This document shows, piece after piece, positions 4,826 through 64,000 of a stretch of 64,000 nt of DNA. The translations under genes were made by a program, and so were the position numbers. The notes below the pieces were generated by a model. The model saw only the letters and a program-made list of their open reading frames with translations, had not been told where the DNA came from and did not search any database. Positions within the stretch are counted from its first letter, which is position 1. Every line of letters begins with the position of its first letter. This DNA is from Clostridia bacterium (GTDB taxonomy: Bacteria > Bacillota > Clostridia > Oscillospirales > Acutalibacteraceae). The DNA is taken from positions 1 through 64,000 of the forward strand of contig JAFTUG010000016.1 in assembly GCA_017466365.1 (NCBI GenBank), given 5' to 3'.

Positions 4826-7800
4826 TTACTCTTTATCCATATATTCCAGCACGCGCTGAATGAGTCCGAGGCGGTTTTCACCTTTGAGAAGGCGCACGGA
4901 TATATGAGGCTTGCCTCCGCCTGCACTCACAACGAATCTGCCTTTGAAATGGGCAGAGGTGCGTGCGATAAGCTCCATATCAAGCGAATTGATTTTGAAA
5001 ACAATCTTATCACCCTGCATGGTGATTTCATAAATATCGTGCGAAGCTGCTTTGCCTCGGAGAAGCGCAATTCTGATAAGACCCTCAACGCACGGCGGCG
5101 GGTCTCCGAAACGGTCAACAAGTTCGTCGATAACATCGGAGGCATCATCGTCGTTACGGATATCGGCAATTCTGCGGTAAATCTGAAGCCTCTGCGGCAC
5201 ACTTTCGATGTAGTTATCGGGAATATGAGCATCAATCGGAAGGTCAATAACGCAGTCCTTTTCGGGAATATCGGATTTTTCGCCCTTTTCCTCGCTGATA
5301 GCCTGCTCAAGAAGCTTAACATACATCTCATAGCCGACGGTTTCCATGTGACCGTGCTGATTTGCACCGAGAACATTGCCGGCGCCTCGCAGCTCAAGGT
5401 CACGCATGGCTATATGGAAGCCCGAACCGAATTCGGTGAATTCTCTTATCGAATCAAGACGGCGTGTTGCGATTTCGCTCAATTGCTTGCCTCTTGTGAA
5501 GGTGAAATATGCGCTTGCACGGCGTGATGACCTGCCGACTCTGCCCCTTATCTGGTGAAGCTGGGCAAGACCCATTCTGTCCGCATTTTCGATGATAAGG
5601 GTGTTCGCATTCGGAACATCAACGCCCGTTTCGATAATCGTTGTACAAACAAGAATATCAATTTCGCCTTCTAAAAGCCTTCTCCATACCTCGCTCAATT
5701 CGTCCTCGCTCATTTTGCCGTGACCTATGCCGACATTGGCATCGGGGAGCATTGCTTTGATTTCCGCCGCTTTTTTCTCGATATCCTCAACTCGATTGTA
5801 GAGATAGTAAACCTGACCGCCTCTGCGAAGTTCCTGCTCCATCGCCTGAACAAGAACGGGCATGTTATGCTCGATAACATAGGTCTGAACGGGGAGTCTG
5901 TCCTGCGGTGCTTCTTCAAGCACGGACATATCACGTATTCCCGTCATCGCCATGTTGAGGGTTCTCGGAATGGGTGTTGCTGTTAATGTGAGAACATCAA
6001 CGGTGGGGAAATTCTGCTTTAGTTTTTCTTTTTGAGCAACGCCGAAGCGCTGTTCTTCGTCAACAATAATCAGCCCGAGGTCACGGAACTGAACGTCTTT
6101 TGATATTATTCTGTGAGTGCCGACAACAACGTCAACCGAGCCTCTGCGGAGTCCGTTGAGCGTTTTCTCCGTTTCTTTTTTTGTGCAGAAACGTGAAAGC
6201 ATGCCCGCTTCAATCGGAAAGCCTTCAAAGCGTTTGAGGATTGTCTGATAATGCTGAAGTGCAAGAATCGTTGTGGGAACAAGGATTGCACATTGCTTGC
6301 CGTCTGCTATGCACTTAAAAACGGCTCGGAGTGCAACCTCGGTTTTGCCGAAGCCGACGTCACCGCAGAGAAGTCTGTCCATGGGATAGGGCTTTTCCAT
6401 ATCCTTTTTTATTTCGTGAATGCAGCGGAGCTGGTCATCTGTTTCAACAAATTCAAAACGGCGTTCAAAGTCGTTCTGCATATCTATATCCTGCGAAAAG
6501 GCATGACCCTTCATTTTTATGCGCTTTGAATAAAGCTCGATAAGCTCCTTCGCCATGTCCTTGACTGCGCTCTTGACCCTCGAACGGGTCTTCTGCCAAT
6601 CCTTGCCGCCGAGCTTATTAAGCTTTAGCGGCTTATCATCGTTTTTCGGTCCTATATATTTTGAAACCTGATCAAGCTGGGTAACGGGAACATAAAGATT
6701 ATCGCCCTTGTCATAGCGGATTTTGATATAATCCTTTGTTGTGCCCGAAGCTTCGAGGGTCTGTATTCCCTCGAAAATGCCTATACCGTGAGCCGAGTGA
6801 ACAACATATTCGCCTCTGTGAAGCTCATCGAGATTATTAAAGGCATTTTTGCCCCTCTTCGTTGCAGCAACACGGTTTTTGGTTACTGTTCTTGCTCTGT
6901 AGGTTATAAGGGTGAATTTTGCGTTGGGATATTCAAAGCCTGCGGAAAATCCTCCGGGCAAAACGCAGACGGTTTTTTCGGGGAATTCGGCAGGGGGTAC
7001 GGGGCAGAAAAGTGCGGGAATTCCTTCGTTTTCAAGGTCGTCTGCAAGAGTTTTTGCCGCTTTATCCGTGCCTGCAAGCACAGCGCAGGAATGACCGAGT
7101 CTCTGTCTTACGGCATTGAGGTCGTCAACAACCGCAGATAGAGTGCCGTTCCACGGGCTTATCTGTTTTGCGGTAAAGGTGATAAGCTCTTTTACGGGGG
7201 TGTCAAAGCTGCCTCGGGGAAGATTGTCAAGATAAACCGCACCCATATCCTCGTAATATGAGAATAAATCATGTAGCCTTATTCCGTAGCAGTCAAGACC
7301 TTTGCAGAGAACGCCGTCCTGAAAGAGACCCTTAACGGTTTCCAAAAGAAGCTGCGATGCGCTGCTGAACTTATCCTTTACAGCAAAGCTTTCGCAGACA
7401 AAAAGCATGGCGTTTTCGGAATATGTGAATATGCTGCAGCAATCGGGATAAATAAGCGGTAAATATTTATCGAGAGAAGAAAGACGGATTCCGTCATTCA
7501 TTTTTGTGATATCGTCATTGAGATTTTTGAGAGCTTCGCCCTTGATTTTGTTTTCTGCAATATGCTTTTCAATAAGAGCCGTAAGCATCTCGGGTGTGCA
7601 GAGAATTTCACGGGCGGGAGTTATGCGGATTTCGTCGGCAGAGTCCGTTCTGCGCTGCGTTTCGGGGTCGAAAAACGAAATGCTGTCAACGGTGTCGCCC
7701 CAGAATTCGATTCGGCAGGGCTGCTTTGAGTCGGGCGGAAAGAAGTCGAGAATACCGCCTCTTAACGCAAACTGACCCGCACCGTCAACCTGTTCGCTAC

Positions 7801-9363: not shown

Positions 9364-9963
9364 TATGCCTTTATCGGTCATATCCTTTTTCAAAATTTCG
9401 ATATCGCCGTGATAATAGCAATGTCCGTCCATGCCCGTTGCTCTTGCACCGTCGATATTCGCCTGAACATCATCAATGAAGAAGCATTCCTCGGGCTTTA
9501 ATGAGAATTTCTCATAAAGTGCGAGGTATATTTCTTTTTCGGGCTTAAGAAGTTTGTAGTCGGCAGAAATAAGAACGCCGTCAAAGAGAGAGAGCGCGGG
9601 AATATCTTTTCTGCGTTCGTGGAAATCCGATGAAGCGTTTGAAAGAAGATAAATCCCGAAGCCCTTTTCCTTCAGGCTTTCAATAAAAGGAATCATTTTG
9701 GGAAAAGACGGCATATAGGGATAGAAATTATCCACCATTTCGCAAACCTTATCAAAAACCCTTGCAGGGATTGCGTTGCGTTTTTGAAGCATGATTTCCT
9801 CGGGGGTTATGATGCCCCTGTCTTTATCCGCCCAGAGCTGATTTCTGAATATTTCACGCAGAAGAATGTCGGCGGTTTCTTTATCAAACATCCCGTAAAG
9901 AGTTTTTTCGGGATTATAGTCAATGAGCACTCCGCCCATGTCAAAGATTATGTTTTTAATCAT
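9358..9963 (-). CDS. HAD-superfamily phosphatase (HAD-IA type)
   Basis: HAD hydrolase of 201 residues. Motif I is IIFDMGGVLIDY (the Asp nucleophile position is DxGGV, as in YihX/YfnB-like members), motif II is YLLSNAS, and the motif III/IV region carries KPEKEIY and FIDDVQANIDGA. The start is the ATG at 9963, which has GGAGTTACT immediately before it; the frame remains open a further 12 codons but without a ribosome site. A small cytosolic sugar-phosphate or nucleotide phosphatase is likely; the substrate is unknown. Confidence 0.8.
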   Translation of the reverse strand: MIKNIIFDMGGVLIDYNPEKTLYGMFDKETADILLREIFRNQLWADKDRGIITPEEIMLQKRNAIPARVFDKVCEMVDNFYPYMPSFPKMIPFIESLKEKGFGIYLLSNASSDFHERRKDIPALSLFDGVLISADYKLLKPEKEIYLALYEKFSLKPEECFFIDDVQANIDGARATGMDGHCYYHGDIEILKKDMTDKGIL

Positions 9964-9977
9964 AGTAACTCCATTTA

Positions 9978-10009
9978 AAAACCGCCCTGCGTTATGCAAG
10001 GCGGCTTTT
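9978..10009 (-). terminator. terminator after the Cys/Asp-rich zinc-ribbon gene
   Basis: Stem of CCGCC and GGCGG arms extended by A/T pairs with one mismatch, loop GTTA, and T-rich sequence on the minus-strand exit side, between the stop at 10021 and the HAD start at 9963. Confidence 0.55.
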
Positions 10010-10020
10010 TGATGTTTAAA

Positions 10021-10440
10021 TTATTCGCAGTCGTCGCAATCGCATTCTACATCAAACTCAAGGAGTTCGTTGCAGTTGGGGCAAGTGATACTGCCTTCTT
10101 CAAGGATTTCTCTGTCAACGCAGATAACCTCGCCGCAGCTGGGGCATTCTACATCGTAGTATTCTTCTTCGTCATCATAGCAGTCGTCGCAATCGCAGTC
10201 ACAATCGCAATCGTCAAGCTCTTCATAAACGAAGCTTTCAAGCTCATCGAGATCCTCGTCAACAGCGTCAAGCTGCTCGGAGATAAGATCCATGCCGTCC
10301 TCAAGATCGCTTACGGTAAGAGCGAGTTCGTCGAGAACGTCCATCATTGCATTGATAATTTTTGTTTCGGGCTTGTTTTCATCAAGTGCAAGACCCTCTG
10401 CAAGACCCTTAAGATATGCAACCTTTTCTGTTACGGTCAT
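10021..10440 (-). CDS. Cys/Asp-rich zinc-ribbon protein (CD1247-like)
   Basis: A 139-residue acidic protein. The N-terminal about 75 residues are helical (KVAYLKGLAEGLALDENKP and following), resembling the CD1247 N-terminal domain of Clostridia. A run of alternating Cys and Asp (CDCDCDCDDC) follows, then a zinc ribbon (CPSCGEVICVD ... CPNCNELLEF) and a terminal CDCDDCE. The ATG at 10440 has GGAGG eight bases upstream; an ATG at 10455 overlaps that site and is rejected. It lies just downstream of efp on the same strand. Metal binding is likely from the Cys content; the function is unknown. Confidence 0.75.
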   Translation of the reverse strand: MTVTEKVAYLKGLAEGLALDENKPETKIINAMMDVLDELALTVSDLEDGMDLISEQLDAVDEDLDELESFVYEELDDCDCDCDCDDCYDDEEEYYDVECPSCGEVICVDREILEEGSITCPNCNELLEFDVECDCDDCE

Positions 10441-55322: not shown

Positions 55323-57416
55323 TTATATTAAAATATATGTTGCATCTGCCTGCGTTTCAAAAGAAACGGTGCAGCCGTTCCTGATATAAGGAATTTGCTC
55401 TTTATCCGATTCTCTTATAACGCATTTTATATCGGAGCATTCCACGCTGCAAGTTCTGCCCTTGAGACTCTTGATTTTCAATGATGTGACTTTTTCGTTT
55501 TTGTTTTCGGCAGAAACAAGAAAAGCACCGTCGGCCCTCAAGTTTTCAAATGAGGCAGCTGATTTTTTGTCCCAGCAGGGGAAAAGTCTGATAACACCCT
55601 CATGGCTTTGCATGAGCATTTCATTAACGGTTGCGGGAATTGTCGTAAGATGCTCGATTCCGCCGCCGTGATGGCGGAAAAGTCTGTTGGGAAGTCCGAA
55701 TTCCTTGATGTTCTGACGGATACCTTCTATCAAAAAATCAGGGTCAACGCCGATTCTTGCGCCTGCGGGAAGGTATGAGTTTGAACCGTTATCGTCAAGT
55801 CGTCTGTCATTGATGAAATATGTGTTTCTTGCGATTTTCAGCAGCTTTTCACCCGAAGAAAATCCTATCTGGGAAGCGGGATAAATATGCTGAAGTCCTA
55901 CCGTGTTATCATTTCTCCAGCGAATGCCTCTTTTTGAGTAGCGGAAGCATTTTTTGCCGTGCTTGATAAATGTCGGGAAGTCGCTCAAATTATTAATAAT
56001 ATCCTCCCACAAGGGATATTTTTCGGAGTTGAGATTAAGCTCTTTTGCCATATCGTAAATTCCGCTGAAAAGCAGCTTGACAAGACCGAGAGAGTTTATG
56101 GCATTTACGGTATTTATCTGCCCTATATGTGTTAAAGAATTGAATTTTTCGCCGCGGTAATAGGGGATTTCGTGGGCCGCATCATTCTTTATAACGTATC
56201 TGCCTTTTTGCTTAACAAGATGATCTTCCCAGAAAGCGGCTGTGTTGAATACAAAATCATAGTAGTTTTCAATTGCATAATCCTTGTCATAGGTCGAAAA
56301 CCAATGCATTATGGGAATTACGCAGGCATAAGCGGCGTGGCTTTTCTGACCGAGAAAAAGTATGCCGTGCTCCTTGCAATCCGCTTGGCTGTAAACATCA
56401 TATGCTTTCGGTCCGAAGCTTACGGGGAATGCATAGCCTCTGCAGCCGAAAAGCTTTGCCATTCTTTTTGCTTCTTCACGCATATCATTGACGGGTGCCA
56501 TGTATCCGTCAAAAAGCTCGGGATGATTGGAAGAAAATATGCAATAGTAAGGAGCTTCGTAGTTATAATTCATATGATAATCTCCCGCCCAGGGGAAGAA
56601 ATCATCTGTTATGAAATTGCCGAATAATCCGGGAGGAAATTCTTTGTTGCCCATGCATCCTGCAAGGTGATAAAGGCTTGAATTATAGAATTTCTCGATT
56701 TCTTTATCTTCAAGGATTACCTTGGAAGCGGAAAAGAATTTTTTCCATTTTTCTTGTGTTCTTGCCTTGTCACGCTCATAATCGCCCTGCAAGGCAAGCT
56801 CAATACCTTTTTTGGTGTAATCGGCGTCATCAAAGTGAGTAACCGCAGAAATGCAACAGCTGACAGTTTTAAAACCGTCCGATGTTTGTGTATCAAGCTC
56901 CTTGCAGCAGAGAATTACAGCCGATTCACGGTCAACCTCTTTGCCGTCAAATTTGCGCAGATAACATTTTACACCGTTATCCGTAAACTCGGAATTGTTT
57001 GAATTGCAGGTGTCGGGCATTTCAATGCCGATACTCGGGAATTCTTCCGACTCGGGTGCTTTTATTTGAAAATAAATCAGATTTTCGGGAGCAACAAACA
57101 GCTCCATTCCGATTTTTCCGAATTTGCATTCAAGAAGTCCTTTGTCAAAATACTGCTTTATATTATATTCCGACAAATCAACGTTGCCGATTCGAAGACA
57201 GCCAACGGTTTTTATTCCGCCGTCGGTATGTGCACCGGGAGTAAATTTCCAGAAATCGCATTTTGAAATATGAATGAGAAGATCTTTATCATCATTGTCA
57301 AAAACAACTCCGAGATCACCGTTGCCGCACATTGCGCCTGCAGGAATTTTATAAATTGTACCGCTGCCGTTTGTATTTATCGGTTTTGATGTTATTTCGT
57401 TAAAATAAGTGTTCAA
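55323..57416 (-). CDS. GH95-like (alpha/alpha)6-barrel glycoside hydrolase
   Basis: A 697-residue glycosidase of the GH65/GH95 clan type. N-terminal beta domain (about 1-230), then the catalytic barrel with the segment FPWAGDYHMNYNYEAPYY (resembling the WNGDYHTNIN signature of GH95), HPELFDGYM and YFPVSFGPKA-like loops, and EIPYYRGEKFNSLTHIGQIN. Catalytic residues are not assignable with certainty. No signal peptide; intracellular. GH95 enzymes are alpha-L-fucosidases or galactosidases; the linkage specificity here is uncertain. TTG start with GGTTGGTGAT upstream and a promoter at 57440-57468; the Gfo/Idh gene follows. Confidence 0.72.
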   Translation of the reverse strand: MNTYFNEITSKPINTNGSGTIYKIPAGAMCGNGDLGVVFDNDDKDLLIHISKCDFWKFTPGAHTDGGIKTVGCLRIGNVDLSEYNIKQYFDKGLLECKFGKIGMELFVAPENLIYFQIKAPESEEFPSIGIEMPDTCNSNNSEFTDNGVKCYLRKFDGKEVDRESAVILCCKELDTQTSDGFKTVSCCISAVTHFDDADYTKKGIELALQGDYERDKARTQEKWKKFFSASKVILEDKEIEKFYNSSLYHLAGCMGNKEFPPGLFGNFITDDFFPWAGDYHMNYNYEAPYYCIFSSNHPELFDGYMAPVNDMREEAKRMAKLFGCRGYAFPVSFGPKAYDVYSQADCKEHGILFLGQKSHAAYACVIPIMHWFSTYDKDYAIENYYDFVFNTAAFWEDHLVKQKGRYVIKNDAAHEIPYYRGEKFNSLTHIGQINTVNAINSLGLVKLLFSGIYDMAKELNLNSEKYPLWEDIINNLSDFPTFIKHGKKCFRYSKRGIRWRNDNTVGLQHIYPASQIGFSSGEKLLKIARNTYFINDRRLDDNGSNSYLPAGARIGVDPDFLIEGIRQNIKEFGLPNRLFRHHGGGIEHLTTIPATVNEMLMQSHEGVIRLFPCWDKKSAASFENLRADGAFLVSAENKNEKVTSLKIKSLKGRTCSVECSDIKCVIRESDKEQIPYIRNGCTVSFETQADATYILI

Positions 57417-58132: not shown

Positions 58133-58486
58133 ATGAAGTTTATGCAACTCGAAAGTGAAAAAGCGATTCTGAGGGAATTTGGTAATCGCATAAAACAATA
58201 CAGGATTTCTTTGAATGTTACACAACAGCAACTTGCTCAGAGATGCGGTGTTTCCGTCAGTACTCTTATGCGGATTGAAAACGGAGATGACCCGAAATGG
58301 TCAACGATAATCAAAATTTTATCGGAATTCAATTTGCTCGATAATCTTGATGTTTTAATACCCGAACCTCAACCCGATTACAAAGCGATGTTTGAGGAAA
58401 AGACTGCAAGAAAACGTGCAAGACCCGATAAGAAAAAATCGGGCGATACTTGGGTCTGGGAAGAAGATAAGGAGAATGAAGATTGA
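58133..58486 (+). CDS. HipB-like XRE antitoxin
   Basis: A 117-residue DNA-binding protein. HTH_3 domain at about 10-65 (FGNRIKQYRISLNVTQQQLA, CGVSVSTLMRIENGDDPKWS), and a basic, flexible C-terminal tail (ARKRARPDKKKSGD). It overlaps the kinase gene by 4 bases and is the expected antitoxin and autoregulator. ATG at 58133 with TGGAGGG upstream. The operon promoter and palindrome lie at 58067-58100. Confidence 0.88.
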   Translation: MKFMQLESEKAILREFGNRIKQYRISLNVTQQQLAQRCGVSVSTLMRIENGDDPKWSTIIKILSEFNLLDNLDVLIPEPQPDYKAMFEEKTARKRARPDKKKSGDTWVWEEDKENED

Positions 58487-59772
58487 AAAACATAAATACT
58501 GTCCGTGTGAAATTATGGGGTACTACCGTCGGATATCTTCATCAGGAAGATAACGGACTTGTCGGATTTCAATATGATGACGATTTTCTGAAAAGCAATA
58601 TTGAAATTTCACCCGTTAAAATGCCGTTATCAACGGTCACTTATTCATTTCCTGTTTTGCCCGAACAGACTTTTCACGGCTTGCCTGGAATGGTTGCCGA
58701 TTCGCTTCCCGATAAATTCGGTAACATTGTCATAAAGAACTATCTTGAAAGTCAAGGAAGAACCGAAGACAGTTTGTCGGTTATTGAGAAACTTTGTTAT
58801 ACGGGCAAGCGTGGTATGGGTGCATTGGAATACGAGCCTTCACAAGAAATTGTGTCTGCAAACGAAAAGGTTGACCTCGATGCTCTGACAAAGCTCGCTT
58901 CCGATATTTTGTCCGAAAAAGAGAAGCTTCATATTGAGAAAAACGACAATCTTATGGCACAGTTGATGGAATGCGGTTCATCTGTCGGTGGTGCAAGAGC
59001 AAAAACTCTTATTGCATGGAACCCCGAAACAAACGATATCCGTTCGGGACAAATTCATGCAGGTAAGGGTTATGAATACTGGCTTTTAAAGTTCGACAAT
59101 ATCAAGAACAATAAGGATAGAGATTCAAGACCCGATGACGGTGAATACACAAAAGTTGAATATGCCTATTATATTATGGCTCTTGATGCGGGAATTGAAA
59201 TGAGCGAAAGCAGACTTTACAAAGAAAACGGCAGTGCTCATTTTATGACGAAACGTTTTGACCGCAAGGGTGCAAAAGGTGAAAAACTTCATATGCAGTC
59301 ACTTTGTGCTATGGCTCATATGGATTTCAATTCGCCGAGAGTTTATTCCTATGAAGAAGCTTTTGCAGTAATGAAACAGCTCAGACTTCCGTACAGCGAT
59401 TTTGTTCAGTTGTTCAGAAGAATGGTTTTCAATGAGCTTGCAAAGAACTATGATGACCACACCAAAAACATCTCGTTCCTTATGGATAAAAAGGGCGTAT
59501 GGTCACTGTCGCCTGCGTATGACGTGACATTTTCTTACAGAAAAGACAGCATCTGGGTTAATGCCCATCAGATGCTTATTAACGGAAAATCCGATGACAT
59601 AACAGATGAAGATATGATGAAGGTTGCAGAAAAAGTCGGAATCAAAAAATCCGATGCGATAAAATGCATTGAACAGGTCAAAACTTCCGTTTCAAAGTGG
59701 GAGGATTTTGCACGACAAGCGGATTTATCTCAAAACAATATCAAAAAGATACAGAAAGTTTTAGGTATATAA
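58483..59772 (+). CDS. hipA: HipA-family Ser/Thr kinase toxin
   Basis: Toxin kinase of 429 residues. HipA phosphorylates glutamyl-tRNA synthetase or similar targets and induces dormancy. N-terminal couple-HipA region (VRVKLWGTTVGYLHQED), then the kinase: SSVGGARAKTLIAW (nucleotide loop), TKVEYAYYIMALDAGIEM, the catalytic NYDDHTKNISFLMD (D-H-x-K-N) and LSPAYDVTFSY (metal Asp). All catalytic residues appear intact. The TTG start lies within the end of hipB with AAGGAG upstream. Terminator at 59773-59811. Confidence 0.92.
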   Translation: MKNINTVRVKLWGTTVGYLHQEDNGLVGFQYDDDFLKSNIEISPVKMPLSTVTYSFPVLPEQTFHGLPGMVADSLPDKFGNIVIKNYLESQGRTEDSLSVIEKLCYTGKRGMGALEYEPSQEIVSANEKVDLDALTKLASDILSEKEKLHIEKNDNLMAQLMECGSSVGGARAKTLIAWNPETNDIRSGQIHAGKGYEYWLLKFDNIKNNKDRDSRPDDGEYTKVEYAYYIMALDAGIEMSESRLYKENGSAHFMTKRFDRKGAKGEKLHMQSLCAMAHMDFNSPRVYSYEEAFAVMKQLRLPYSDFVQLFRRMVFNELAKNYDDHTKNISFLMDKKGVWSLSPAYDVTFSYRKDSIWVNAHQMLINGKSDDITDEDMMKVAEKVGIKKSDAIKCIEQVKTSVSKWEDFARQADLSQNNIKKIQKVLGI

Positions 59773-59938: not shown

Positions 59939-60631
59939 TTAAAAATCATCAGATAGCACATTATCATCACTTGTTTGATTTGTTATTTTTCCAATCAAAA
60001 AAAATGAATGCCATCTTGAAATCGGACGTTCCTTTTTAGGATAGTAAAGCCATTTGTTTTTGTTGGTATTAGCATCATAAAGTAGAATCCCTATGTTTAA
60101 TTCTTTAAAAAAATGCAAATTTTTTTGTAACACATTCGACTTATCAAAAGGAAAGACAACAGCAGAATAATTTGCGAAAGCTTTGTATTGCAATGCTTGA
60201 AAAATTGCCCTTTTCCAGTTTGTTAATTTTAATTCAAAAGCCCAAATATTTACATTAGATGAAATGTCCGGTATACATCTATAGAATTTTTGGTTTATCT
60301 CGTTGACATAACCTTTGTTTATCATTTCTTTCAAATGTCTGTTTAAGGATATTTCAGACATACCAGTTTGTTTTATAAGGTAGTCAAATTTTCTTCCAAC
60401 ATTTATTTTTAATAAAGCCAATATTTGACTACTGTTTTCTATAGAAGACATCTTATTAAATTTATATTCTTCGAGAAGACCATTAGAGTTAACACAAACA
60501 AAGTCAGCAATACCTTGTTGACATGTTACTTCTCTAAAAGAAAAATCAAACTTGGGTAATCTAACAATGGATTCCTCAATTAGGCTTTTTTCAAAAGCGT
60601 TTGCCATATCTTGTTCACTGAAAACAGACAT
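59939..60631 (-). CDS. PD-(D/E)xK-like nuclease candidate with internal winged-helix segment
   Basis: A 230-residue protein. A possible nuclease active site is G-I-A-D43-F-V-C and A-F-E133-L-K135 followed by a Gln-containing helix (IFQALQYKAF), the order and spacing of restriction-endonuclease-like enzymes. Between them, residues about 66-110 look like a winged helix (NVGRKFDYLIKQTGMSEISL and NRHLKEMINKGYVN). No close named family is recognised. It is the last gene of the minus-strand operon, one base after the stop of the upstream gene. A DNA-targeting effector is a reasonable but unproven idea. Confidence 0.55.
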   Translation of the reverse strand: MSVFSEQDMANAFEKSLIEESIVRLPKFDFSFREVTCQQGIADFVCVNSNGLLEEYKFNKMSSIENSSQILALLKINVGRKFDYLIKQTGMSEISLNRHLKEMINKGYVNEINQKFYRCIPDISSNVNIWAFELKLTNWKRAIFQALQYKAFANYSAVVFPFDKSNVLQKNLHFFKELNIGILLYDANTNKNKWLYYPKKERPISRWHSFFLIGKITNQTSDDNVLSDDF

Positions 60632-60632
60632 T

Positions 60633-61811
60633 TTATATTCCTAACTCACTTTCTATTTGTTCTAAAGCTATTTTCCATAGAGATAAATGTGAACCATTAG
60701 ATTTTGAATCCAACATCGGAATAGATCGCTCAATTATAGAATATGATTCCATAGCGCTTATGATTTTATTTTTTAGTAAACTAATTTTGTTTGATATTGA
60801 ACTTTGAGAATCTATTTCAGTTAGAATTCTGGATAATATATGCCAATTATGTAAGCAGCTAATTTCATCTGTCCACGAAGACTCAGAGGACAGAGCGGCA
60901 TTGTATGGAGAATCAACACGAAATGTTTGTTGTAATCCATTACGAGTAAGTGTAATTATTTCAGGAATAAGTAATAATGATCCCATTAATAGATCCGAAG
61001 AATAGCGTTTTCTTGGTCTTCGTCCTCCGGTTGAAGGTCTATAATTTGCTTCACTAAAAGATTTCAAATTTGAATACCACCCAGAAGAAAAAGTTATGTT
61101 GCCAACAACCGATAGAGGTATTGATAATAAATCAGAGTAGCCAAGAATAACATTGTAGAGATTAACTTCGGAAAGAATATAAAGAAAATACATTATATTT
61201 GTAAGTTTATTTGGTGATATTTCGGTTGGCTTTGATGTGTTAGATTCCCTTTCAATTATAATATAAAATCCCTCTGCATCCAAAAGGCTAATAACATTTA
61301 GAAATTCTTCCATTGCGGGTTTGTTATTAAAAGCATTTTCATTTATACAGAGTGAAATTAAAGTTTTTTCAGGATTGTTGCTTACACTTATAGATTCATA
61401 AGCCAACGAAACAGCAATTTGACTCTCTCGTCCATCAAAACTATCGATTGCAATGGTTGGGGATATAATAGATTTTAATCTAAGTGTGCTTTGAAAGTCA
61501 AATACTTTTTGAGTGTAATTATGAATGTTTTGTGGATTTGAAAGTTTAGAGCGAGATAAATCGCTTTGAAAGTATGGATAAAGGGGGAGCTTTCCAGAAT
61601 TAATATCTCCTTGAAAATTACAAACAAAAAATTGTGGATCAAAAAGAATGGTGGCATTGGGGTGATTTGAAGACAACTGTTGTGAATATTCAAATATTTT
61701 TTCTGGAGTTTCAGCTTTTGGACTAAGGATAACTCCGTTGATATCTCCTTCATTTAAGCCTTTATCTATTTTACTTCCTTTTCCATATCCATGTTGTGCA
61801 TATAAACTCAT
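60633..61811 (-). CDS. unrecognised protein, possible TIM-barrel-like fold
   Basis: A 392-residue soluble protein of no family I know. It has alternating hydrophobic strands (GVILSPKAE, ATILFDPQFFVCNF, TIAIDSF, LISLCINENAF, GFYIIIERE, NVILGYSD, ITFSSGWY) spaced by helices, as in an (alpha/beta) barrel, and a Gly/Arg-rich basic stretch TGGRRPRKRYSSD around 262-275 that could touch nucleic acid. No transmembrane segment. ATG with GGGGGAA upstream. It lies between the kinase and nuclease-like genes with gaps of 1-2 bases, so it belongs to the same unit. Confidence 0.5.
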   Translation of the reverse strand: MSLYAQHGYGKGSKIDKGLNEGDINGVILSPKAETPEKIFEYSQQLSSNHPNATILFDPQFFVCNFQGDINSGKLPLYPYFQSDLSRSKLSNPQNIHNYTQKVFDFQSTLRLKSIISPTIAIDSFDGRESQIAVSLAYESISVSNNPEKTLISLCINENAFNNKPAMEEFLNVISLLDAEGFYIIIERESNTSKPTEISPNKLTNIMYFLYILSEVNLYNVILGYSDLLSIPLSVVGNITFSSGWYSNLKSFSEANYRPSTGGRRPRKRYSSDLLMGSLLLIPEIITLTRNGLQQTFRVDSPYNAALSSESSWTDEISCLHNWHILSRILTEIDSQSSISNKISLLKNKIISAMESYSIIERSIPMLDSKSNGSHLSLWKIALEQIESELGI

Positions 61812-61813
61812 TG

Positions 61814-62722
61814 TTATTCCCCCAAATTAGTTTCTAAATTGTTTAATTCATCCAAAAGAATGTCTATTTTTCGGTATCTACAGTTGGGCTGCTTGCTTAA
61901 TAGACGACAAATTATATTGTTAAGGCCTATAGGCATATCTTCATTTAAATTTATAGGCGGGACAATAGGATTACGAATAATATTTGTAAATAATTCATCG
62001 TTAGTCATTCCGATTTCATAAAATGGGTGTTTGGTTGTTGACGCTTGGTACATAACTATACCAAGAGCAAACAAATCAGAGCGAAAATCTATATCTCTCT
62101 TATGTTGGTAATCTAATTGTTCAGGCGAAAGAAAAATTTTTGTTCCTGGAACATCACCATAGCGAGTTAGGGATTTATCTTCCAAATCAAGAGCAAGCCC
62201 CATATCTAATAATACATATGTACCGTCGTTCTTTTTTCTAATAATATTTAAGGGCTTTATGTCTCTGTGTACAATAGAATGGCTCCACAACTCGGAGATG
62301 GCTTTGGCAATGTCTCTGCATAGATTTATACATTCCTTTACAGATAATTTTTCTCTTGAAATTATACTTTGTACACTTTCTCCCTCTATCCAATCTTCTG
62401 AATATACAAGCATTTCTTGGTTGTTGTAGCGAATAGATTGAATTTTAATATCACCTAATTTAACAATAAAAGGAGAGTCAATATTATCCATAATGTTGAC
62501 TTCTCGAATTGCTCGTGCTTGTATTGCGTCTATTATTGCTTCTCTATTTGGATCAATATCTCCACTCGAATCTCCAAGTAAAATGAATTTTAATGCACAT
62601 TTTTTGCCATTGATTTCACAAGGGAAAACTAGTTTTTGTCCACCTTTTAACGGCGCATTTAAAACTTTGCAATTTCCAAACATTGCTTCAATATCGTCTG
62701 AATTTATAAGTGGTATATTCAC
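61814..62722 (-). CDS. soluble Ser/Thr protein kinase
   Basis: Hanks-type kinase of 302 residues from GTG 62722, chosen because GGAGG is six bases upstream; ATG at 62752 has no ribosome site. ATP Lys in KCALKFILLG, catalytic loop HRDIKPLNI, metal motif DMG (instead of DFG), activation end SPEQLDY, and PFYEIG. There is no PASTA or transmembrane segment, so it is not the usual PrkC; the whole protein is the kinase domain. It is the only clear signalling enzyme of the operon and could phosphorylate the neighbouring proteins. Confidence 0.88.
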   Translation of the reverse strand: MNIPLINSDDIEAMFGNCKVLNAPLKGGQKLVFPCEINGKKCALKFILLGDSSGDIDPNREAIIDAIQARAIREVNIMDNIDSPFIVKLGDIKIQSIRYNNQEMLVYSEDWIEGESVQSIISREKLSVKECINLCRDIAKAISELWSHSIVHRDIKPLNIIRKKNDGTYVLLDMGLALDLEDKSLTRYGDVPGTKIFLSPEQLDYQHKRDIDFRSDLFALGIVMYQASTTKHPFYEIGMTNDELFTNIIRNPIVPPINLNEDMPIGLNNIICRLLSKQPNCRYRKIDILLDELNNLETNLGE

Positions 62723-62768
62723 AAGAAACCTCCATAATAATTTAAAGAACAAATTTGTTTTTAAAATT

Positions 62769-63548
62769 TTAATTGTTTTCTAATTCTTTCCATTCAAAAT
62801 TGAATTTGAGTTTATTATTATTTGTTCTAACAATAAACTTTTTCATTATTCGATCGTATTCTTTTGAAATTTCATCTATATCACTAGCCTTTAAAATATT
62901 GGAATCTTTATATATATCAAAACGAATCGAATGTATAAGCTGTAAAATGTTTGTTAGTCGCGACACGTGTATTTTAGAGTATTTTGTTACATCTAATGCT
63001 TTATCGGTAAATACATTTTCAAATACATTTTCCATTCTGCTAAGCTCATGAATGCATTTATTTATATAGTAATGGGTTTCAATGTAATAAAATTTTTGTT
63101 TTTCCAAAAAGATTAAATTGTTTGGTTGCAAGTCACTTTGTTTGTTGGTGTTGTTTATTTTTTCTGAATTATAGTTTTCATAAAAATTGTTCGCGGTCAT
63201 TGCATAATAACATATATTATTGTCAAATGTGTTCACGTATGGTTTTATATTAAACACAGAACTTTTTATTTTGCTTCTTGTAGTCCAATAATCTTTCAAA
63301 TAAACATATAGTGTATATAGTAAAATACCTGTTGCTACAGCAAGCAGAAAACACAAAATATATAACTGTGTTTTTTCTTTTGCTTGGTAAAAATCAAAGA
63401 ATTTATCTACAACTAAAGTTATAATGGTGATATATAACTCAATAACTAATGGTTTTTCGTGTGAATTTTTTTTGCCTAATTCTTTGGTTATATATTCTAC
63501 ATCCTTTTTTAGTCCCATATCCTGCCATTCATTAATGGTGTGTTTCAT
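62769..63548 (-). CDS. two-TM protein with long cytosolic tail
   Basis: A 259-residue protein. Two hydrophobic segments (PLVIELYITIITLVVDKFF and LYILCFLLAVATGILLYTLYVYL, the latter shown only in part) near residues 33-85, followed by a helical, charged tail of about 170 residues (for example KALDVTKYSKIHVSRLTNIL, then LKASDIDEISKEYDRIMKK). ATG at 63548 with AGGGGGC just upstream, three bases after the preceding stop. No family is recognised. A membrane-bound effector or sensor is possible by analogy with other defence operons. Confidence 0.6.
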   Translation of the reverse strand: MKHTINEWQDMGLKKDVEYITKELGKKNSHEKPLVIELYITIITLVVDKFFDFYQAKEKTQLYILCFLLAVATGILLYTLYVYLKDYWTTRSKIKSSVFNIKPYVNTFDNNICYYAMTANNFYENYNSEKINNTNKQSDLQPNNLIFLEKQKFYYIETHYYINKCIHELSRMENVFENVFTDKALDVTKYSKIHVSRLTNILQLIHSIRFDIYKDSNILKASDIDEISKEYDRIMKKFIVRTNNNKLKFNFEWKELENN

Positions 63549-63551
63549 TTG

Positions 63552-64000
63552 TTAGCCCCCTATTAGTTCAGTTATTTTTTTGATTTCATTGTACAAGTTA
63601 ATTAGTTCTTCGTGAGCCTTTTCATTTCGGTTAAATGTGATTAGGTTTTCTTCATCCATTGATGCAGTATCCATCCATGATAGAGTTTCTTCAAAAAGTG
63701 CATCAATATAAAGACTGTTTTCGGTATATTTACCATTGCTTTTTTCATCAGCTATTTTTAAAAAATCAATATTTTTATCTGTTATACTCTTGATAATTCT
63801 ATCAAGTATTTTTGCGGTAAATAATATATTTATGTCGACATAGTTAGAATATGCGATATCAATATTTTTATATGCATCTATGCTTCTTTTTGTTTTATGT
63901 AATTTTTTAAGTGCAGTTTTTGAAACTCCATATTTTTTTGAAAGATATGCTTTTCCTTTAGCGTAATCAGAACGAAAAGTACCTAGAAGTACCCGGTTAT
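63552..64000 (-). CDS. unrecognised protein, partial (N-terminus beyond the window)
   Basis: The frame is open from the right edge to TAA at 63552-63554, giving the C-terminal about 148 residues. The first visible part (AKGKAYLSKKYGVSKTALKKL) resembles a small helix-turn-helix; the rest is helical and acidic, ending TELIGG. It sits three bases before the two-TM gene, so it is the most upstream visible gene of the operon. The promoter and any further genes are outside the window. Confidence 0.6.
   Translation of the reverse strand, partial: NRVLLGTFRSDYAKGKAYLSKKYGVSKTALKKLHKTKRSIDAYKNIDIAYSNYVDINILFTAKILDRIIKSITDKNIDFLKIADEKSNGKYTENSLYIDALFEETLSWMDTASMDEENLITFNRNEKAHEELINLYNEIKKITELIGG

Follow-up and report, generated by a model that had tools for sequence, protein, structure and literature searches.

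A dispersed three-gene module of a Hanks-type kinase, a nuclease-like protein and a barrel-like protein as a candidate mobile defence system

Introduction

At the right edge of the 64,000-nucleotide stretch of Clostridia bacterium DNA analysed here (the window) lies a compact run of minus-strand genes. Do these genes form a defence system, and if so, which of them belong to it? The sequence-only reading had proposed an undescribed defence operon of five genes, in which membrane, kinase and nuclease parts together would follow the logic of abortive infection. Here we follow these genes across other genomes, plasmids and viral contigs and compare the encoded proteins with known systems. Three of the five genes recur elsewhere, and we refer to them as N (nuclease-like), K (kinase) and B (unrecognised, barrel-like).

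Results

The operon comprises five minus-strand open reading frames in positions 59939..64000 and the continuation of the contig. Extending the contig to the right completed the first operon gene (63552..64000), which runs 94 bases beyond the window edge to contig position 64094 and encodes 180 aa. It is followed by the gene for a 259-aa two-TM protein (62769..63548) and then by K (61814..62752; 312 aa, with a TTG start), B (60633..61811; 392 aa) and N (59939..60631; 230 aa). The intergenic gaps, read 5' to 3' along the transcript, are 3, 16, 2 and 1 bases, and GC content is 0.27–0.32 in 1-kb windows inside the operon, against 0.377–0.477 in the first 30 of the 32 two-kb windows of the 64-kb stretch. 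The initial description of five AT-rich minus-strand genes with mostly 1–3 base gaps (three of the four) is borne out by these values, as is the presence of a neighbouring hipBA pair. The hipB-like (58133-58486) and hipA-like (58483-59772) genes lie on the plus strand, convergent with the operon, and we found no reason to count them as part of it. A scan for promoters and terminators yielded nothing decisive, promoter-like sites being no commoner than in shuffled sequences.

The surrounding DNA was compared with that of related genomes in search of an empty site. A gene at 55323-57416 was matched in 15 of 45 genomes of the genus. In six of these 15, the flank beyond that gene was non-syntenic to the contig (at >45% identity) apart from isolated matches, and therefore no insertion site could be defined. 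An MFS neighbour had distant matches only, at 33–40% identity, in five other genomes of the genus.

The first two genes of the operon proved to be private to this lineage. Residues 33–53 and 59–85 of the 259-aa protein are hydrophobic, in keeping with the two-TM assignment made earlier, and the in-window part of the first gene gave a weak PADLOC match to PDC-M38A (6e-5). In 300 genomes of the family searched for each gene, we recovered nothing except the copy in the window itself and a single weak match apiece, in G016 (E 6e-5) and G064 (E 3.5e-4). Both matches contain internal stops and failed closer inspection; the one in G016 overlaps the beginning of a reading frame that resembles RNase J. 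A search of plasmids gave no credible relatives of either gene, and both genes are absent from the DNA fetched around the other 18 loci described below. The proposal that the five-gene order is conserved elsewhere was thus rejected: only N, K and B recur. Since no credible relative of the two-TM protein was found, the membrane part of the suggested abortive-infection logic lies outside the conserved system, and the first two genes are lineage-specific additions.

N, K and B, in contrast to these additions, constitute a well-supported three-gene module. We assembled 19 loci, from ten families of the window's phylum, Gemmiger, a Polaromonas plasmid, a haloarchaeal plasmid and four viral contigs; a twentieth candidate (L029), where a weak B fragment is accompanied by neither K nor N, was dropped. 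K adjoins B in all 17 loci whose contig covers the relevant flank of B; 18 of the 19 loci have N. Gaps between the three genes mostly range from -56 to +27 bases, with one of 166. Protein distances for N, K and B correlate over 15 loci (Spearman 0.50, 0.55 and 0.65), and none of 2000 permutations gave values as high. Distribution is sparse: of 45 genomes of the genus, the window's own is the sole carrier, and the module occurs in 3 of 398 genomes of the family, in 10 of 398 of the phylum and in 2 of 391 of the class. The three genes are genuine, closely linked and inherited together across very distant carriers, and the catalytic residues of both enzymes are retained.

K is a soluble Hanks-type Ser/Thr protein kinase, as had been read from its sequence. 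It scores 102.2 bits against Pfam Pkinase (cut-off 31.7; E 4e-29), and the catalytic K, E, HxD and DxG are kept in 17 of 17 homologues. Its nearest solved relatives are kinases of the StkP/PknB type.

The evidence on N is more mixed. The window copy carries a D..ExK..Q motif (D43, E133-x-K135, Q145), and the D, the ExK and the downstream Q are kept in all 18 homologues. The combination of a conserved D with (D/E)xK that characterises PD-(D/E)xK enzymes was found throughout. An upstream glutamate (E34) is kept in 17 of 18, and Q replaces the first E in L034. Comparisons with PD-(D/E)xK families gave weak, sub-threshold, single-member matches only (HSDR_N 0.08, NucS_C 0.18, Cas4b 0.02), and profiles of N run against PDB sequences returned winged helices or nothing relevant, and no nuclease. 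Between D43 and the ExK, inside the catalytic core, 13 of 18 homologues have an insert of 75–86 aa; the remaining five have 3–9 aa there. In the window copy, weak winged-helix matches fall on residues 70–109 (HTH_24, 0.0015), within a stretch of about residues 70–119 (60275..60424, minus strand). We infer that N probably adopts a PD-(D/E)xK-type nuclease fold and that its insert may be a winged helix. Of the earlier assignment as a putative nuclease with an internal winged helix, the conserved residues stand, the winged-helix matches are weak, and the nuclease family matches stay below threshold.

Searches of Pfam, PADLOC 2023, PHROGs and PDB sequences gave no convincing match for B. Window B had no PADLOC match, and 14 B proteins gave single weak matches only (best 1.8e-4). 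The alternation of hydrophobic strands and helices, read by eye, suggests a TIM-barrel-like protein, which agrees with its original description as an unrecognised, barrel-like protein. Residues D58, P59, P118 and G244 are kept in all 17 full-length homologues, and the conserved signature (Q-x-G, SP, FDPQ, P118, ASG) is of a pocket type. In L026, which lies on a long contig, B is only 147 aa long. Phage records contained no B match; scans of viral sequences found nothing when queried with window B or Polaromonas B. Scans queried with two alignments found four loci, and repeat scans returned only the same two contigs.

We also compared the module with known systems. Its proteins matched no single known or candidate multi-gene system in PADLOC: K matched kinase models only, the best match of N was to a winged helix (0.001), and window B, as noted, had none. 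The top match of K, to PD-T4-6 (2.5e-41), extends across the kinase domain, and the likeness is confined to that domain. PD-T4-6 is a single-gene system, and ordinary kinases are matched by its models too (2e-46 for one control protein). K reached 32.9 bits against the PglW model (cut-off 990) and 70.1 bits against the model for the MADS kinase MAD6 (cut-off 460), so that it is not a full-length member of either family. In PglW of BREX type 2/Pgl and in a subset of DndF, a NERD-REase is fused to Ser/Thr kinase modules, according to PMC12839542, and the module, with its putative nuclease, resembles these defence components, each of which couples a restriction-type nuclease domain to a Ser/Thr kinase. 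The domains of PglW and DndF are, however, fused in one large protein of a multi-gene methylation system, whereas the module has separate small proteins plus B. KKP, described in PMC11341870 as an antiphage kinase-kinase-phosphatase module of prophages, is likewise mobile, prophage-borne, tripartite and kinase-based, but its parts are two kinases plus a PP2C phosphatase; in the window operon there is a single kinase, and PP2C is missing. Among the neighbours inspected, a PP2C-like gene (named by eye) adjoins the module in L033 only. Our search of the literature, with bioRxiv and supplements outside its scope, turned up no account of these genes as a set. The view that kinase, nuclease-like and barrel-like proteins form an undescribed-looking set, conserved elsewhere and on mobile elements, is upheld for these three genes.

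The genomic context of the module is mobile in several cases. Two carriers are plasmids (Polaromonas and haloarchaeal) and four are viral contigs; by eye from translations, the module adjoins an integrase and a relaxase-like gene in L040 and a recombinase in L031. Defence-related neighbours, named from ten proteins picked by eye, occur in five loci: HmaB and HmaC directly upstream in L021 (HmaC ends ~65 bases before N), AbiEi/AbiEii in L028, a type II methylase and restriction enzyme in L031, a type I methylase fragment in L025 and a type IIG-like gene in L008. Hma (type-1 BREX-related, with a DUF499 ATPase, a methylase and a helicase) is a neighbour in L021 only and is non-homologous to N, K and B. 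At 1e-30, 24 PADLOC families were counted in 74 neighbour proteins, compared with 37 in 113 proteins taken from the same genomes as controls; this count shows no PADLOC enrichment next to the module. The control comprised 12 stretches, two of them only 2.2 kb, and beyond the ten proteins picked by eye hits were not assigned to loci; UvrD-type helicases and a type I restriction set are among the control hits listed (25 of 37 families).

Discussion

Presence in distant bacteria, an archaeon, plasmids and viral contigs makes the module look mobile and probably antiviral, and this context likely argues for a role in defence. The defence claim with which we started is supported by mobile carriage and not by the neighbourhood count. 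Our leading interpretation, to which we give somewhat less than an even chance, is that the conserved core is a mobile, phosphorylation-controlled nuclease defence. B would sense an infection-derived product or metabolite and K would become activated; active K would phosphorylate N, B or both, a direction that we infer. N, guided by the winged helix where present, would then cut invading or cellular DNA, ending either the infection or the cell. A broader proposal is possible, if on balance doubtful: the module may represent a new class of mobile immunity, shared by bacteria and haloarchaea, in which a sensor of the undescribed, TIM-barrel-like B family and a free-standing Hanks kinase act together with a nuclease, N, whose catalytic core is interrupted by a DNA-binding winged helix, phosphorylation releases DNA cleavage, and plasmids and prophages use the system against competitors.

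Mobile carriage also suits a different function. Carriage by plasmids, by viral contigs and by an integrative element would fit a maintenance module resembling a toxin-antitoxin system: K or N would act as the toxin, B or a partner would restrain it, and the mobile element would be stabilised with no anti-phage role; the PP2C-like gene beside the module in L033 could fit as well. We regard this as unlikely, given that two of the module's three genes encode enzymes whose active sites are conserved, that it includes no small antitoxin, and that it is also chromosomal, with no evident mobile element in the fetched stretches. The very sparse distribution of the module, together with the presence on plasmids and viral contigs, makes a metabolic or stress-signalling operon unconnected with mobile-element conflict improbable, even though the pattern of B resembles an enzyme-type barrel and the neighbourhood control lacked enrichment.

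N might instead be a nuclease-derived transcription regulator, the module serving as a phosphorylation switch over nearby prophage-lysogeny or defence genes and not as an effector. Kinase-controlled repressors lie upstream of immune operons in CapK/CapS (PMC13373217), and an insert of winged-helix size is present in 13 of 18 N proteins. We dropped CapK/CapS as a direct counterpart, CapK being described in that source as resembling anti-sigma-factor kinases. We consider the regulator quite improbable: the insert is missing from 5 of 18 N proteins, yet D, ExK and Q persist in all 18, and no downstream gene is common to the loci examined. Finally, the tight spacing and uniformly low GC of the operon would accommodate the original view that all five genes work as one unit, the two-TM protein being its membrane effector, but no credible relatives of the extra genes were found and both are missing from the DNA fetched around the other 18 loci, and we judge this very improbable.

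If the favoured reading of the N-K-B core as a nuclease defence is correct, the module would add a sensor family, B, that is absent from the databases searched, and its free-standing kinase controlling a nuclease would be a simpler version of the coupling between nuclease and kinase reported for PglW and some DndF proteins. Carriage by a haloarchaeal plasmid as well as by mobile elements of bacteria suggests that the three genes form a portable cassette. Some N cores have the predicted winged helix and others lack it, with catalytic residues unchanged, and this contrast would provide a natural test of the coupling between targeting and cutting.

The operon at the right edge of the window

The source contig is 444,414 bases long, in an assembly of 2.06 Mb (20 contigs, 79.6% complete), and the window covers its bases 1-64000. 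The right edge of the window holds an operon of five minus-strand genes encoding a 180-aa protein (63552-64094), a two-TM protein of 259 aa (62769-63548), the Hanks-type kinase K (312 aa, 61814-62752), the unrecognised protein B (392 aa, 60633-61811), and the nuclease-like protein N (230 aa, 59939-60631). Reading the contig beyond the window completed the first gene, which runs 94 bases past the edge to 64094. The close spacing and low GC noticed in the sequence-only reading were confirmed, with intergenic gaps of 3, 16, 2 and 1 bases and a GC of 0.27-0.32 inside the operon versus 0.377-0.477 over the first 30 of the window's 32 two-kb segments. An MFS-type transporter gene lies 359 bases upstream on the same strand, and a hipB-like and a hipA-like gene (58133-59772; four-base overlap; HipA_C 1.8e-51) lie downstream in convergent orientation.

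Relatives of protein B

Being unknown to every library, B made the best probe. Fourteen B proteins gave single matches alone in Pfam (0.037 upward) and three single matches in PADLOC (best 1.8e-4); the best match in PDB sequences was 0.19, seven B proteins had no match in PHROGs at 0.1, and the window B had none in NCBIfam. Asp58, Pro59, Pro118, and Gly244 of B are present in 17/17 full-length homologues, and Gln60 in 16. Read by eye, short hydrophobic strands alternate and end in conserved SP, FDPQ, SP/IP, and ASG motifs, a pattern that suggests a TIM barrel.

Single-protein searches with B returned its own genome only among 45 of the genus, three of 398 family genomes (own included), and two plasmids among 72,556 records, one from Natribaculum breve, a haloarchaeon (27% identity over 95%), the other from Polaromonas naphthalenivorans. 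Profile searches placed B in 10 of 398 phylum genomes and 2 of 391 class genomes, each count taking in its own genome. A pattern scan of GTDB contigs added a locus in Candidatus Gemmiger stercoripullorum and two viral-contig scans four more; since the genome sets overlap, these tallies are not additive.

N, K, and B recur together

Nineteen of 20 candidate loci were kept. L029, with a weak B fragment and both K and N missing, was rejected. K adjoins B in all 17 loci with that side of B on the contig, a count that excludes two contigs starting inside B and would become 17/18 with L029 included. N is present in 18/19 loci, the exception being L024, whose contig ends 154 bases after B. Twelve loci have the genes as N-K-B and four as K-B-N (the window, L025, L034, and L035, the last with N on the opposite strand); L005 and L028 show B-N and L024 shows K-B. 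Gaps between the three genes range from -56 to +27 bases (166 in L040), the overlaps being maximum values, since each ORF was extended to its first possible start. At L026 (6966-7409) B is just 147 aa although the contig is long, so this copy may have decayed. Upstream of the full N, L027 also carries a short additional N-like fragment of 86 aa (9869-10129).

Across the 15 loci with all three proteins, pairwise distances correlate (Spearman 0.50 for N-K, 0.55 for N-B, and 0.65 for K-B), and none of 2000 permutations was as high. This fits co-inheritance, but shared divergence of the hosts could also give it.

Conservation of the whole five-gene order elsewhere was not supported. Apart from their own copies, the 180-aa and 259-aa proteins had no credible relatives in 300 family genomes each (one weak match per protein failed on closer look), in plasmids, or in DNA fetched around the module loci, and the 259-aa protein had none among viral contigs. 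A weak PADLOC match of the 180-aa protein (PDC-M38A, 6e-5, part of a 715-position model) was given no weight. Judged by position, both genes are co-transcribed with N, K, and B; they lie outside the conserved system.

Kinase and nuclease-like proteins

The Lys, Glu, HxD, and DxG of a Hanks kinase are present in 17/17 K homologues, with HCD in place of HRD in L035, and the nearest solved structures are StkP/PknB-type kinases. In N, an Asp, ExK, and Gln are found in 18/18 homologues and an upstream Glu in 17/18; the Asp-to-ExK spacing is 75-86 residues in 13/18 and 3-9 in 5/18. In the window N, the insert between Asp and ExK matches winged helices (HTH_24, 0.0015; best profile match in PDB sequences, 0.0018). 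Single members matched HSDR_N (0.08), NucS_C (0.18), and Cas4b (0.02), which are PD-(D/E)xK families, and N profiles found no nuclease match in PDB sequences. At the family level, these matches point weakly to a nuclease fold.

Carriers and neighbourhood

Two plasmids and four viral contigs carry the module. From translations named by eye, L040 is an element with an integrase beside B and a relaxase-like gene, L031 has a recombinase 22 bases after B, and in L035 the module is flanked by repressor-like genes and an integrase-like gene. On the viral contig L033, a PP2C-like phosphatase gene (4990-5733, also named by eye) directly follows B on the opposite strand and is a possible opponent of K.

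PADLOC-named defence genes adjoin five loci: HmaB and HmaC directly upstream of N, by about 65 bases, in L021 (2-5396; the locus starts inside HmaB), AbiEi/AbiEii in L028, a type II methylase and restriction enzyme in L031, a type I restriction methylase fragment in L025 (5244-5900), and a type IIG-like enzyme in L008. In a control, however, 74 neighbour proteins taken from 12 chromosomal loci had matches to 24 PADLOC families at 1e-30 and 113 proteins from other stretches of the same 12 genomes had matches to 37, giving no enrichment by a count that is itself crude, since the control matches listed include UvrD-type helicases and a type I restriction set. A link to defence islands is unproven.

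Discussion

The proposal of an undescribed defence operon holds in part: an undescribed-looking kinase, nuclease-like, and B set recurs elsewhere, whereas the two private genes fall outside it and the island link is unproven. The literature searched contained no description of this gene set, nor did the DefensePredictor text consulted mention it (PMC13092281). Nuclease-kinase coupling in defence is already known. In the text consulted, nuclease and kinase modules are fused in PglW and some DndF proteins, with a suggested backup-effector role (PMC12839542), which makes these fusions our nearest working analogy. KKP, a tripartite module carried by prophages and described as a kinase-phosphatase toxin-antitoxin and antiphage system (PMC11341870), resembles the set in lifestyle and differs from it in parts. 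B and the free-standing architecture, by contrast, matched nothing in the searched libraries.

We are nearly certain that N, K, and B constitute a three-gene module that is both mobile and functional. It probably serves conflict with mobile elements, a confidence lowered by the lack of enrichment in the neighbourhood control. More tentatively, the three proteins could act as a chain in which B would sense, K would phosphorylate, and N would cleave.
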